NCBI RefSeq assembly: GCF_000012985.1
Contig: NC_007645.1
Location: forward strand, 186,001 to 250,000
Direction: 5' to 3'
DNA: 64,000 nt
Source: Hahella chejuensis KCTC 2396
GTDB taxonomy: Bacteria > Pseudomonadota > Gammaproteobacteria > Pseudomonadales > Oleiphilaceae
Below the pieces are notes generated by a model. That model saw only the letters and a program-made list of their open reading frames with translations. It searched no databases and was not told the DNA's origin. Position numbers and translations under genes: made by a program. This document shows, one piece after another, positions 59,276 to 63,656 of the stretch (the first letter of the stretch is position 1; each line of letters begins with the position of its first letter).

Positions 59276-61513
59276 ATGTCGAAATTCGCATCACTGTTCG
59301 TCAATAGCTCAGCTTCTGATCAGGATGAGGACAAAGGTAAGCCCAAAGTATCCTACAGTGTTTTGCTGGTGGACGATGAGCCTGCTGTGCTGAGTGCGTT
59401 GAGCCGGGTTTTCCGCAAGGAGAGCTATGACATTCTGACCGCCAATAATGCGATGGAAGCGCTGGAAATCATCAACCAGCGCCGTGTTCATTTATTAGTT
59501 TCAGACTACATGATGCCGGGCATGACCGGCGCGGATCTGTTGCGTAAGGTAAAAGAGCAATCCCCGGATACGATTCGAATTATGCTGACCGGACAGGCGG
59601 ATACTACCGCAGTGATGGCCGCCATCAATGAGGGTGCGGTCTATCGCTTTATTCTCAAGCCCTGGAATGATGACGACTTACGCGTCACTGTGGCCCTGGC
59701 GCTGGAGCAGTATGATCTCATTCAGAAGAACAAGGAGCTTGAGAAGACCAACGCCAAACAGCAAAAAGATTTGCAGGCGTTCAGCAAGCTGGCGCAACAA
59801 AACCGCAGCCAGCTGGCGATCATGCTGCATAAGCACAATCTTTTGAATAAACAGCAGGTTCAGGAAGTCTTCAAGCTGCAGCAAAGCCGCAAGGAGACGG
59901 TGATCAAACTGTTGCTGGAAAAACAATGGATTGATGAACGTAAGCTGGTGCAGTTGCTGAAAAAGGAAATGTTCTTTGAAGAAGTGTCCCTGGCTGAGTT
60001 TCAAATCGAGCCGGTGACGTTGTCGCTCATACCCAAATCCCTGTGTCAGAAGCAGCTCATCATTCCTCTGAGAGTCAGCGGCAAGCGTTTGTTATTAGCC
60101 ATGGCGGACCCGCTTAACGTGGAGCTGATAGACGAACTGGGCTTCACCACGGGCATGCAGATCGATCCTGTAGTCGCTACGGTCAGCGCAATGGAGTTGA
60201 AACTCGCCGAGCTGTTCGAGGAAGAGGAAACCTCCATCAAAGAGCTGGAAAGCATAGTGACGGGGATCGATCCTTTCGAAGGCATCGAAGTGGTGATCGA
60301 AGATGACGACGATGATTCTCTGGAAGATCTGTTAAGCCAGACCGAACAACCGCCGGCGGTGCGCCTGGTCAATGCGATCATCATTGAGGCCTTGCGCCTG
60401 GGCGCCAGCGATATCCATATCCATCCCCGCACCAATCAGGTCATCGTGCGCTATCGCATTGACGGCGTGCTGGAGGATAAGATCCGCATCCCGCATAGCA
60501 TGCATATGTCTCTGGTCTCCCGTATCAAGGTCATGTCTGAGCTGGACATCACCGAACGCCGCCGTCCCCAGGACGGGCGCATCACGGTGAAAACGCCGAT
60601 GCGGGTGGTGGACCTGCGCATTTCCACACTGCCCACATTGAACGGGGAGAAAGTGGTGATGCGGGTGTTGGAGCGTAATTCCTCAGTGAAAAACCTGACT
60701 CATTTGGGGCTGTCGGAACTCAACTCCCGACGCATGGAAGCCGCCATCAATAAACCCCAGGGCATGATTCTCGCGACAGGCCCTACCGGCAGCGGCAAAA
60801 GCACGTCGCTCTATGCGTTGTTGCAGCATAACGCCACCACGGAGAAGAATTACGTTACCATCGAAGACCCGGTGGAGTTCTATCTGGACATGGCCGGGCA
60901 GGTATCCGTACGAGAGAAAATCGGCCTGAGTTTCGCTTCCATTCTGCGCGCCATTTTGCGCCAGGACCCGGATATCATTCTGCTGGGAGAAATTCGCGAC
61001 TTCGAGACGGCGGAAGTCGCGTTGCATGCGGCGTTGACCGGACACTTGGTATTCTCCACGCTGCACACCAACTCCTCCATCGGCACCATCGCCCGGTTGT
61101 TGGATCTGGGCATCAAACCCTTCGTCGCGGCCCAGGCGTTAGAGTGCATCATCGCGCAGCGGCTGGTGCGGCGCATCTGCGATCATTGTCGTGAAGAAGT
61201 GACGCCCAACGAGGAGGAAATATACCTGCTGGGCCCTCTGTTCAACGATCCCCACCTGAAAACCTATCACGGCCGCGGCTGCCATAAATGCAACCACGGC
61301 TATAAAGGCCGCATCGGCCTGTATGAAGTCCTCACCATCACAGAAGAACTGCGCCACCACATCGCCGGCGGCGCATCCAGTAAAGAACTTCACGAAATCG
61401 CCGTCGCCAACGGTCTGGTCACCCTCGTCGCCGACGCCAAAACCCGCGTCCACAACGGACTCACCACCACCTACGAAGTCCTGCGGGTGCTGGGAACGCA
61501 GATTGAGGTGTAA
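59276..61513 (+). CDS. Response-regulator receiver fused to a GspE/PilB-type secretion/pilus ATPase
   Basis: This 745-residue protein is seven bases after the kinase. Residues 26-140 form a receiver: VLLVDDEP, phosphoacceptor Asp77 in LLVSDYMMPGM, Thr105 and Lys128 in FILKPW. A coiled coil (145-180) is followed by a MshEN/T2SSE_N-like region (about 180-330). An acidic linker (EDDDDDSLEDLLSQ) leads to a GspE/PilB ATPase from 360 with DIHIHPRTNQV, the Walker A GPTGSGKST at 502-510, an Asp-box IEDPVEF, PDIILLGEIRD and paired Cys zinc motif (CDHC, CHKC). It probably links kinase output to assembly of a type IV pilus or type II-like system. No pilin or secretin gene is adjacent. Confidence 0.9.
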   Translation: MSKFASLFVNSSASDQDEDKGKPKVSYSVLLVDDEPAVLSALSRVFRKESYDILTANNAMEALEIINQRRVHLLVSDYMMPGMTGADLLRKVKEQSPDTIRIMLTGQADTTAVMAAINEGAVYRFILKPWNDDDLRVTVALALEQYDLIQKNKELEKTNAKQQKDLQAFSKLAQQNRSQLAIMLHKHNLLNKQQVQEVFKLQQSRKETVIKLLLEKQWIDERKLVQLLKKEMFFEEVSLAEFQIEPVTLSLIPKSLCQKQLIIPLRVSGKRLLLAMADPLNVELIDELGFTTGMQIDPVVATVSAMELKLAELFEEEETSIKELESIVTGIDPFEGIEVVIEDDDDDSLEDLLSQTEQPPAVRLVNAIIIEALRLGASDIHIHPRTNQVIVRYRIDGVLEDKIRIPHSMHMSLVSRIKVMSELDITERRRPQDGRITVKTPMRVVDLRISTLPTLNGEKVVMRVLERNSSVKNLTHLGLSELNSRRMEAAINKPQGMILATGPTGSGKSTSLYALLQHNATTEKNYVTIEDPVEFYLDMAGQVSVREKIGLSFASILRAILRQDPDIILLGEIRDFETAEVALHAALTGHLVFSTLHTNSSIGTIARLLDLGIKPFVAAQALECIIAQRLVRRICDHCREEVTPNEEEIYLLGPLFNDPHLKTYHGRGCHKCNHGYKGRIGLYEVLTITEELRHHIAGGASSKELHEIAVANGLVTLVADAKTRVHNGLTTTYEVLRVLGTQIEV

Positions 61514-61729
61514 AAATTAGAAATTTTAGTGGAGGGTATAAAATAATTACTAGATAAATATCCTGATATGTTCTTATTTTACTTGGCGTTTGCTTTTTTT
61601 GTATTTTCAGTGTCGATTTTTGTGTCTTTTTTATCTCTGGATTTTTCTATTTTTTGTACTAGTAATTCATATGTGAATCGATCATTTATATAATATAAAT
61701 TTATATATTTATAACGAAATGGGTGTTTT

Positions 61730-63121
61730 ATGCATGAGGAAAAATCTTCTGGTGATGATGATAAAAGTTTAGTGCATAGTGATTACCAAATAAGATGGAA
61801 GAATTATAGAAGGTTTGAGGATACAGACTGGATTACAATTAAACCTATCACAATTCTTATTGGTGCAAATAATTGTGGTAAGAGCAGTATATTAGCTCCT
61901 CTTTTGCTTCTCAACCAAACTATAAAATCTAACGATACTGAAACGCCTTTAGTAACTAGAGGAAGGCTTATTGATGCGGGTAACTATAAGGACTTTATTC
62001 ATCATCATGAGGAAAATAGAAATTTATTCTTAGGATTAAGATTCCATCTTCATGAAAACAGAAAGGCAAATAAGCCGGTAGGAAGCTATCCCCCTGGAGC
62101 TATTGAATTAACCTTTTCCAAAGGTAGAGAAGCTCATCAACTAATTCTCAATAAATACGAGCTTTATGACATATTTAAGAGGAAATATTTGTCTCAATCA
62201 TTGAATAAAAGTGGAAAATACTCTCTGAGCGGAAATATCTCATATTCTAAAATGAGTGATAGAGAAAAGGCTGCAGTTTTAAAGTCTGAAGTGGTTAACT
62301 TTCTATTCTCTCCTACGTCTACATTGTACTCACTGGAATTACCTAGTGATGAGAGTGAGGAGTCTGAGGTTGAAAGATTTTCAGAAGAGTTTTCACATTA
62401 TTTAAGAGCTATTGGTTACGCCTTCTCTGAAATAAGAAGCTTATTTCAAAATTTGAGTTATGTGGGTCCACTGAGAAAGAAAATAGAAAGATATTACAGA
62501 ATTGCATCTGAAACACCTCAGACTGTTGGGCCTCAAGGTGAAAATGCACCCAACTTATTCAGGCGTAACTACGAAAATCTCAAGCATGACGTTGATAGAT
62601 GGGTAAAGCACTTTGAATTTGGTGACTCTCTACATTTTGATGATGTGAATGATGACATTTTTCAGTTATTTCTTGGTTCTGGGGATCAGAGAGTAAATGT
62701 TGCTGATGTAGGGTTTGGAGCATCTCAAGTATTGCCTCTAATTATTCAGGCGCTTGCAGCTCCTCCTGATAGCCTAACATTGGCAGAGCAGCCGGAGATT
62801 CATTTGAATCCAAGGCTCCAGTGTGCATTAGCCGACTTATTTGTACATATGGCCAATAACGGTCATAGAGTTTTAGTGGAAACTCATAGTGAACACTTAA
62901 TAATGCGACTCCGAAAGTTTGTCGCAAATGGTGATATAAAAAAGGATGATGTCGCTCTTTATTTTTTAGAGAGAGATGGTGACAGGTCAGTTATTAAACA
63001 AGTTAATATAGAAAATAATGGGCATATTAATACGGAATCATGGCCAAAAGGATTTTTTGATGATGCACTTCGCGAAGCTCTAGCACTAGCGAGCGCACAA
63101 GCAAAAATTAGGAGTAAATGA
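61730..63121 (+). CDS. SMC/OLD-like ABC-type ATPase (DUF3696 type), probable defence-system sensor
   Basis: This 463-residue protein starts at ATG 61730 in AT-rich DNA. Walker A is GANNCGKSS at residues 45-53 within WITIKPITILIGANNCGKSSIL. The middle is a large helical insert. Later come VADVGFGASQVLPLIIQAL (signature-like), TLAEQPEIHLNPRLQ (Walker B with Glu) and VETHSEHLIMRLR (H-loop). This is the AAA_15/DUF3696 arrangement shared by the ATPases of Septu, PARIS and OLD-type systems, which sense phage or DNA ends and gate a nuclease. Its stop overlaps the start of a PIN-like nuclease gene. Codon use and base composition differ from all upstream genes. Confidence 0.85.
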   Translation: MHEEKSSGDDDKSLVHSDYQIRWKNYRRFEDTDWITIKPITILIGANNCGKSSILAPLLLLNQTIKSNDTETPLVTRGRLIDAGNYKDFIHHHEENRNLFLGLRFHLHENRKANKPVGSYPPGAIELTFSKGREAHQLILNKYELYDIFKRKYLSQSLNKSGKYSLSGNISYSKMSDREKAAVLKSEVVNFLFSPTSTLYSLELPSDESEESEVERFSEEFSHYLRAIGYAFSEIRSLFQNLSYVGPLRKKIERYYRIASETPQTVGPQGENAPNLFRRNYENLKHDVDRWVKHFEFGDSLHFDDVNDDIFQLFLGSGDQRVNVADVGFGASQVLPLIIQALAAPPDSLTLAEQPEIHLNPRLQCALADLFVHMANNGHRVLVETHSEHLIMRLRKFVANGDIKKDDVALYFLERDGDRSVIKQVNIENNGHINTESWPKGFFDDALREALALASAQAKIRSK

Positions 63122-63606
63122 TGTGCATATTTGATGTAACTATAGACACTAATGTGTTGATGCATGGCAGCAACCCTAATGAAAATCGATTTCATGATAC
63201 TGTAGAATTTTTGCAACTTCTTTTAGAGTGTGAGACGCATATATGTGTTGATATGGGTTTTAATTTCGAGGAGGGAGTTAATAATAGCATTATTGGGCAT
63301 GAGTACTTAACGAAACTTGTCCACGGACAGTTTGGTTATGCTGTTATTACTCAAATGGCGCAAACAGGGAGGATTGACATGGTGGAAACTGATATCGGAA
63401 TGGCTAAGAATCGCTCCCTTATAAATATGATTTCTAATAAGCATGATAGAGTCTTTGTTAGAGTTGCAGCAAACTCTCGGGCGCACGTACTAGTTTCTCA
63501 CGATCTAAGGGACTTTCCTCCTCACACAAGAAAAGAGCTTAAGAAATTATTTGAGTTATTTGTTTCAGAAGCGTCAGAAGCTAAGAACTTATTGGCAGAT
63601 GAGTAG
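63121..63606 (+). CDS. PIN-like nuclease, effector candidate paired with the SMC/OLD-like ATPase
   Basis: This 161-residue protein starts at ATG 63121, six bases after AGGAG; ATG 63118 is also in frame, giving an overlap with the ATPase stop either way. The N-terminus FDVTIDTNVLMHG supplies the first PIN Asp, with an acidic patch near EFLQLLLECETHICVDMGFNFEEG. The C-terminal half has VRVAANSRAHVLVSHDLRDFP, the usual strand with the last catalytic acids. PIN proteins are Mg-dependent RNases (or, less often, DNases). It forms a tight two-gene cassette with the ATPase, ending at a symmetric hairpin. Confidence 0.75.
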   Translation: MCIFDVTIDTNVLMHGSNPNENRFHDTVEFLQLLLECETHICVDMGFNFEEGVNNSIIGHEYLTKLVHGQFGYAVITQMAQTGRIDMVETDIGMAKNRSLINMISNKHDRVFVRVAANSRAHVLVSHDLRDFPPHTRKELKKLFELFVSEASEAKNLLADE

Positions 63607-63610
63607 TTTG

Positions 63611-63649
63611 AAAATCCCCTAGATTATTTTCTACCATCTGGGGGATTTT
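63611..63649. terminator. Bidirectional terminator closing the AT-rich cassette
   Basis: AAAATCCCC (63611-63619) and GGGGATTTT (63641-63649) pair as a perfect 9-bp stem, extended inward by four more pairs, with A and T tails on both sides. It sits between the PIN gene and the oppositely oriented gene entering from the right, and also marks the end of the AT-rich island. Confidence 0.85.
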
Positions 63650-63656
63650 GAATTGC

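Follow-up and report, generated by a model that had tools for sequence, protein, structure and literature searches.

A candidate two-gene anti-phage cassette of an OLD-type ATPase and a PIN-domain protein in Hahella chejuensis

The analyzed stretch of the Hahella chejuensis KCTC 2396 genome (64,000 nucleotides; NC_007645.1, positions 186,001 to 250,000; hereafter, the window) contains, close to its right end, a segment with a guanine plus cytosine (GC) content of 35.6% that carries a compact two-gene cassette: a 463-amino acid (aa) OLD-type ABC ATPase followed by a 162-aa PIN-fold protein, with a 4-bp overlap between the two open reading frames (ORFs). There is direct support for the two proteins with their intact motifs and fold, for their tight, co-varying pairing, and for exchange of the cassette between species with almost no amino-acid change. 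With a probability of about 0.58, the cassette can be interpreted as a horizontally exchanged anti-phage system of the abortive-infection type, in which the ATPase would restrain the PIN RNase until triggered by a phage. The features of the segment, in window coordinates, are:

61513..63655, no strand assigned: low-GC accessory segment of 2143 bp that contains the cassette; BLAST breakpoints at 61512 and 63656 in loci L172 and L173
61730..63121, + strand: OLD-type ABC ATPase, 463 aa, AAA_15/AAA_21 and DUF3696; presumed sensor and holder of the nuclease
61862..61885, + strand: Walker A, GANNCGKS, residues 45-52; G45, N47, G50 and K51 at least 90% conserved in the 38-row alignment
62711..62728, + strand: ABC signature-like motif, GFGASQ, residues 328-333; G328, G330 and Q333 invariant in the 38 rows
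62780..62812, + strand: Walker B, LAEQPEIHLNP, residues 351-361; E353, P355, E356 and P361 invariant in the 38 rows
62879..62896, + strand: switch motif, ETHSEH, residues 384-389; E384, H386 and S387 invariant in the 38 rows
62936..63085, + strand: DUF3696 C-terminal domain, residues 403-452; Pfam E 1.3e-13, above the cut-off
63118..63606, + strand: PIN-fold protein, 162 aa; presumed RNase effector
63145..63147, + strand: PIN active-site Asp10; D in 78/78 aligned PINs
63250..63252, + strand: conserved PIN Asp45; D in 78/78
63301..63303, + strand: PIN acidic residue Glu62; E in 76/78, Q in 2
63445..63447, + strand: PIN acidic residue Asp110; D in 77/78, E in 1
63502..63504, + strand: PIN acidic residue Asp129; D in 77/78, gap in 1
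63611..63649, + strand: intrinsic terminator ending the two-gene unit; RNA fold -20.7 kcal/mol, z -4.46

The first-pass annotation, made from the DNA letters alone, had described a DUF3696-type ATPase with complete nucleotide-site motifs that overlaps a small PIN-domain protein, the unit being closed by a terminator. Each of these points was borne out, by Pfam and the motif conservation in the alignment, by the overlap and the predicted structure of the downstream protein, and by the folding energy of the terminator hairpin, respectively. The ATPase also matches OLD/RecF/SMC-type ATPases.

The 162-aa protein is a PIN domain in the predicted structure (predicted local distance difference test score, pLDDT, of 92.5), and HARP, the RNA-free RNase P, heads its structural matches in a tie with VapC toxins; the absence of a family from the list of structural matches is no evidence against that family. 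Judging from the fold and the acidic residues, the protein is probably an endoribonuclease. Searches with this protein alone detected no match among the PADLOC models (HEC-03A at E <= 1 included), in PHROG or among the sequences of solved structures (where the PIN profile gave chance-like matches only), no relative in plasmids and phages by tblastn, none in the 130 stretches of genome contigs recovered by short words, and, among 369 genomes of the class, only its own genome. These results suggested an orphan, a possibility that was discarded when searches with the ATPase found paired relatives.

Recurrence and relatives of the ATPase-PIN pair

An ORF with a PIN pattern lies directly downstream of the ATPase in 72 of the 80 best ATPase relatives from named genomes, and the pair therefore recurs in other genomes, on which the first-pass annotation had made its defense proposal depend. 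The 80 are the best of 484 confirmed matches to a query alignment built from PIN-paired ATPases, so that the sample leans towards such ATPases. Among the remaining eight, L069 and L105 show a PIN match in this position by tblastn, L058, L098, L108 and L128 reach the end of the contig 0-231 bases past the ATPase, and L075 and L121 have room for a downstream gene and show no PIN match, the partner in L121 being a 304-aa protein. In the viral collection, 7 of the 36 ATPase relatives are followed by a PIN pattern, and the partners of the remaining 29 are 165-363 aa in length. The PIN calls were made by a loose N-terminal sequence pattern together with length and position rather than by a curated model, but are independently supported by the PADLOC model HEC-03A, made by others, which matches 72 of the 78 aligned PINs; among the 88 PIN rows, L054, L055, L155 and L161 were called by pattern alone. 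The same loose pattern was found in only 5 of 306 other neighbors of similar size, so the pairing is not explained by chance. The most common spacing between the two genes is -4 bp (56 of the 88 PIN loci). A PIN profile search matched 4 of 293 genomes, in each case next to the ATPase; all four PINs are rows of the profile itself, so that the search adds only that no ATPase-less PIN of that type turned up.

The protein distances of the ATPases and PINs co-vary (Mantel r 0.88, 0/2000 shuffles, n=80; r 0.82, 0/1000 shuffles, n=74 after exclusion of the window clade). This test included 80 of the 88 rows, near-copies among them, and omitted L007, L045, L054, L055, L155, L161, L051 and L088, whereas the PIN alignment (78 of the 88 rows) omitted the near-copies L066, L067, L070 and L072 and the highly divergent L007, L045, L054, L055, L155 and L161.

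Six relatives of the window type were identified, in Polaromonas (57% identity over the best-matching segment), Cyclobacteriaceae, Lacihabitans, Flavobacteriales, Chthonomonas and a single IMG/VR contig. The Polaromonas ATPase (L051:8040-9492) is split over two frames, as a result of either gene decay or a mistake in the assembly. Together with the window copy, the six relatives form a single clade (support 100) that is separate from the HEC-03-type clade described below, the deeper branching order not being settled by these trees (the first ATPase tree omitted rows scoring <150 or <340 aa in length and the near-copies L139, L148, L163 and L164; the 82-row tree omitted L007, L045, L054, L055, L155 and L161). 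Profile-profile comparison shows the window-clade and HEC-03-type PINs to be homologous (hhalign 95.7%, E 9e-9, over residues 4-127 of the window PIN), but HEC-03A matches only one of the seven PINs of the window clade (weakly, E 0.0045, and not that of the window) compared with 72/78 in the whole set. The ATPases of the window clade score roughly alike on the PADLOC models PDC-M55A, NsnB (Menshen) and HEC-03B, with 215.7, 210.2 and 175.7 bits, respectively, for the window ATPase. By these sequence scores and trees, the window clade is a separate branch, lying at roughly the same distance from the ATPase models of HEC-03, Menshen and PDC-M55.

Comparison with known defense systems

The combination of an ATPase and a PIN protein in this layout had been considered unnamed in the first-pass annotation. 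This is not the case: it is listed in PADLOC as the Hma-embedded candidate HEC-03 (HEC-03A, the PIN; HEC-03B, the ATPase), and OLD-ABC/PIN pairs are mentioned in a 2026 paper (PMC12839542). The window locus resembles HEC-03 in the gene order (the PIN directly after the ATPase), the 4-bp overlap, the ATPase superfamily and the PIN, which is homologous and shares the acidic residues. It differs in that HEC-03A does not match its PIN, the PINs of its clade have no RNA ligase behind them, and its ATPase reaches 175.7 bits on HEC-03B, compared with 440.1, 445.3, 518.6 and 543.7 bits for four HEC-03-type ATPases. Because of the unmatched PIN, the ATPase score below the level of members and the separate clade, membership in HEC-03 was not accepted, and an automatic HEC-03 call for the window copy appears unlikely when judged against the scores of members rather than the PADLOC cut-offs. 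The PADLOC check proposed in the first-pass annotation thus has a mixed outcome: the layout is listed, but the window copy fits neither HEC-03 model in the way that members do, so that in this narrower sense the original claim was correct. According to the accessible text of PMC12988326, the Hma-embedded candidates are credited to a guilt-by-embedding preprint and several of them, including HEC-06, show antiviral activity; the sole mention of HEC-03 as a defense term found in our literature search is a survey entry (PMC13356809).

In the accessible part of PMC12839542, OLD-ABC/PIN endoRNase pairs are reported in BREX neighborhoods and proposed to function as a backup suicidal effector. These pairs share with the window cassette the coupling of an OLD-type ABC ATPase to a PIN RNase but, as far as this text describes them, differ in context given that no BREX gene was recognized by eye at the window locus. 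In PARIS, the ABC ATPase AriA forms a hexamer that retains AriB; once released in response to a phage protein, AriB cuts tRNA (PMC12409363, accessible text). The likeness lies in the ABC ATPase sensor with a separate RNase effector, a logic assumed for the window pair, and in the match of the window ATPase to the AriA model (E 1.5e-30). However, AriB is a TOPRIM protein whereas the partner here positively has the PIN fold and PIN acidic residues, and the window ATPase has a DUF3696 C-terminus; the cassette was accordingly not assigned to PARIS.

The best-scoring models for the window ATPase belong to Menshen (NsnB) and PDC-M55 (PDC-M55A). The partner model PDC-M55B has 315 positions and, like all other PADLOC models, does not match the window PIN, so that membership in PDC-M55 was rejected; a genome search for PDC-M55B yielded 0/38 (own genome included), with the controls also silent, and shows nothing by itself. 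Membership in Menshen was weighed but not accepted; the window PIN matches no model of the PADLOC library, in which the presence of NsnA and NsnC models was not confirmed. Menshen includes DUF262, and no DUF262 gene was recognized near the window cassette. Septu, which consists of the PtuA ATPase and the PtuB HNH nuclease, is likewise a two-gene combination of an ATPase with a small nuclease, but the window ATPase is only distantly related to PtuA (E 7e-4) and its partner is positively a PIN rather than an HNH protein, so this assignment was not accepted either. The PIN fold is compatible with VapBC, but the paired gene encodes a 463-aa ATPase rather than a small antitoxin, so that VapBC was not accepted as well. 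The literature search returned no paper joining DUF3696 with PIN (one unrelated DUF3696 paper was found), nothing joining an OLD-like ATPase, a PIN domain and anti-phage activity, nothing on PDC-M55, and nothing joining Menshen with NsnB; the ATPase-PIN-ligase arrangement is not described in the accessible portions of the literature joining RNA ligase, PIN and ATPase.

Genomic slot, exchange and neighborhood

The congener G373 holds the cassette in the same slot, with 99.2% identity for the ATPase gene and 99.6% for the PIN gene, whereas the flanks are less alike (89.3% for the neighboring gene and 91.9% for the right flank). The 11 differences between the two ATPase genes are all silent, with 0 amino-acid changes, and the PIN genes differ by one silent change and one replacement (H136R). 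In the congeners G372 and G369, the same flanks enclose, instead of the cassette, 741 other bases that are 97.6% alike between the two genomes and show no real match to the cassette. The low GC content of the cassette segment agrees with the earlier description of the DNA as unlike its surroundings. Different genes again follow the left gene in G371 and G374. The PIN profile of the window clade matched 2 of the 7 listed genomes of the genus and 2 of the 151 genomes of the family; in two other groups (395 and 300 genomes), only the seed genome was matched. Taken at the sequence level, the cassette behaves as a horizontally exchanged accessory element and seems to move between species. The longest string common to both edges in the search for a target-site duplication is an unconvincing 6 bases, and hence no insertion mechanism is proposed. 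The 741 bases (L172:3019-3759; the same slot in L173) contain, in G372, an ORF for an apparently hydrophobic 163-aa protein without a Pfam match.

The defense association of the pair in the sampled loci is visible but modest. The Lacihabitans relative is located downstream of HsdM and HsdR genes, the Flavobacteriales relative has a Type_ISP enzyme ∼2.3 kb downstream, and the IMG/VR relative adjoins a resolvase; the other three relatives in the window clade seem, by eye, to lie among ordinary genes (L053 on one side only). With regard to the recurrence in defense islands raised in the first-pass annotation, some copies are found beside restriction-modification genes, but three of the six clade relatives apparently are not. 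Families seen more than once among 64 neighbors in the wider family are Eco57I (4), DUF1156 (3), N6_Mtase, HSDR_N, HsdM_N, DUF499 and Swt1-HEPN (2 each), and related helicase and methylase families were detected in the same scan. This is a biased count because, of the 121 neighbors, the scan covered 57 of the 60 upstream (without L066, L067 and L070) and 7 of the 61 downstream, the latter picked by eye and perhaps the only source of the DUF499 and Swt1-HEPN counts. At the window locus, inspection of the neighboring ORFs by eye, with no family search made, revealed no Hma component (helicase, methylase or DUF499 ATPase). In the Cyclobacteriaceae relative, a 237-aa ORF (L052:7264-7977) without a Pfam match is located 18 bp upstream of the pair and contains a DISGFT stretch that we take to be cyclase-like.

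RNA ligases, proposed mechanism and alternatives

In 49 of the 88 PIN loci (42 of the 72 loci from genome contigs; for example, L002:6915-7607 and L003:6907-7608), the 1.1 kb following the PIN contain a match to an RNA ligase, presumably of the Rnl2 type, as counted by direct tblastn on both strands at E <= 1e-4; this replaces an earlier count of 32/87, which had missed ligases masked by antisense ORFs. Pfam RNA_ligase was confirmed in two of these loci. In the 82-row tree, the 49 ligase loci all fall in the HEC-03-type part and are clustered (6 changes vs 25.9 shuffled), whereas the window clade has the ligase in 0 of 7 rows and no match was found within 1.1 kb behind the window PIN. The window genome encodes three PF09414 proteins far from the cassette, the best of which is ∼30% identical to an HEC-03-type ligase; no role in trans is claimed. 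Given that an RNA ligase follows the PIN in so many loci, RNA is favored as the PIN substrate in this family. PIN nucleases leave 3'-OH and 5'-phosphate ends, which an Rnl2-type ligase could rejoin. It is conceivable, if doubtful, that the window clade founds a separate, unnamed ATPase-PIN immune system, an irreversible, ligase-free version, and that the sister HEC-03 is largely a three-gene cut-and-seal system that buffers or undoes its own RNA damage. The association of PIN and RNA ligase in the sister systems raises the testable possibility that RNA damage inflicted in immunity can be repaired by the system itself, and a natural set with and without the ligase is ready for comparison.

Because AriA/AriB of PARIS is the closest worked example, we infer the same hold-and-release logic for the window pair. 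The OLD-type ABC ATPase would bind the PIN RNase and hold it inactive as long as the cell is healthy; some product or activity of a phage would alter the nucleotide state or the assembly of the ATPase, making it the sensing as well as the restraining half of the complex; the ATPase would then free or switch on the PIN RNase, which would cut host RNA, possibly tRNA, and phage RNA, so that the infection would stop together with the cell. If the cassette is indeed anti-phage, the families with an OLD-type ATPase sensor (PARIS, Septu and Gabija) gain a PIN-class RNase effector, and the PADLOC models used overlook an entire clade beside a candidate that PADLOC lists.

The same two proteins might instead compose a stand-alone toxin-antitoxin module with an addiction or stress role and no phage sensing, the PIN being a VapC-like ribotoxin that the ATPase merely neutralizes. 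The VapC matches and the compact, self-contained unit ending in a terminator of its own are in line with such a module, and so is the apparent location of three of the six relatives among ordinary genes. This explanation nevertheless appears unlikely: the ORF before the PIN is the ATPase itself, a 463-aa ABC protein with conserved catalytic motifs rather than a small DNA-binding antitoxin, and some homologs lie beside restriction or BREX-like genes. Less probable still is a restriction-like pair in which the ATPase would detect the ends or structures of foreign DNA, of which OLD/SbcC-type ATPases are capable, and the PIN would cut DNA. The OLD/RecF/SMC-type matches and the DNA restriction-modification genes adjoining some relatives fit this possibility, but PIN proteins that act on RNA top the list of structural matches and the homologous PIN has an RNA ligase gene behind it in 49 of the 88 loci, none of them in the window clade. 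A cellular RNA-processing or RNA-repair unit, with an HARP-like PIN maturing or recycling RNA, is the least probable of all, suggested as it is by the top HARP match and the ligase partner in the HEC-03-type relatives, given the patchy presence of the cassette with other DNA in the slot of two congeners, its recent exchange between species and the tie between the HARP and VapC matches.

Two further branches of the ATPase family were noted. In one, found on phage and provirus contigs (L134, L136, L138, L141, L143-L145, L148, L150-L152 and L009), the partner is a protein of 332-335 aa, and the ORF555/ORF333 pair of P2-EC5 (L009) belongs to this branch. In the other (L045 (G046:C156), L022 and L046), the partners are 141-154 aa in length and have PIN-like first strands (IIDANM, ILDVNS and ILDNSV).
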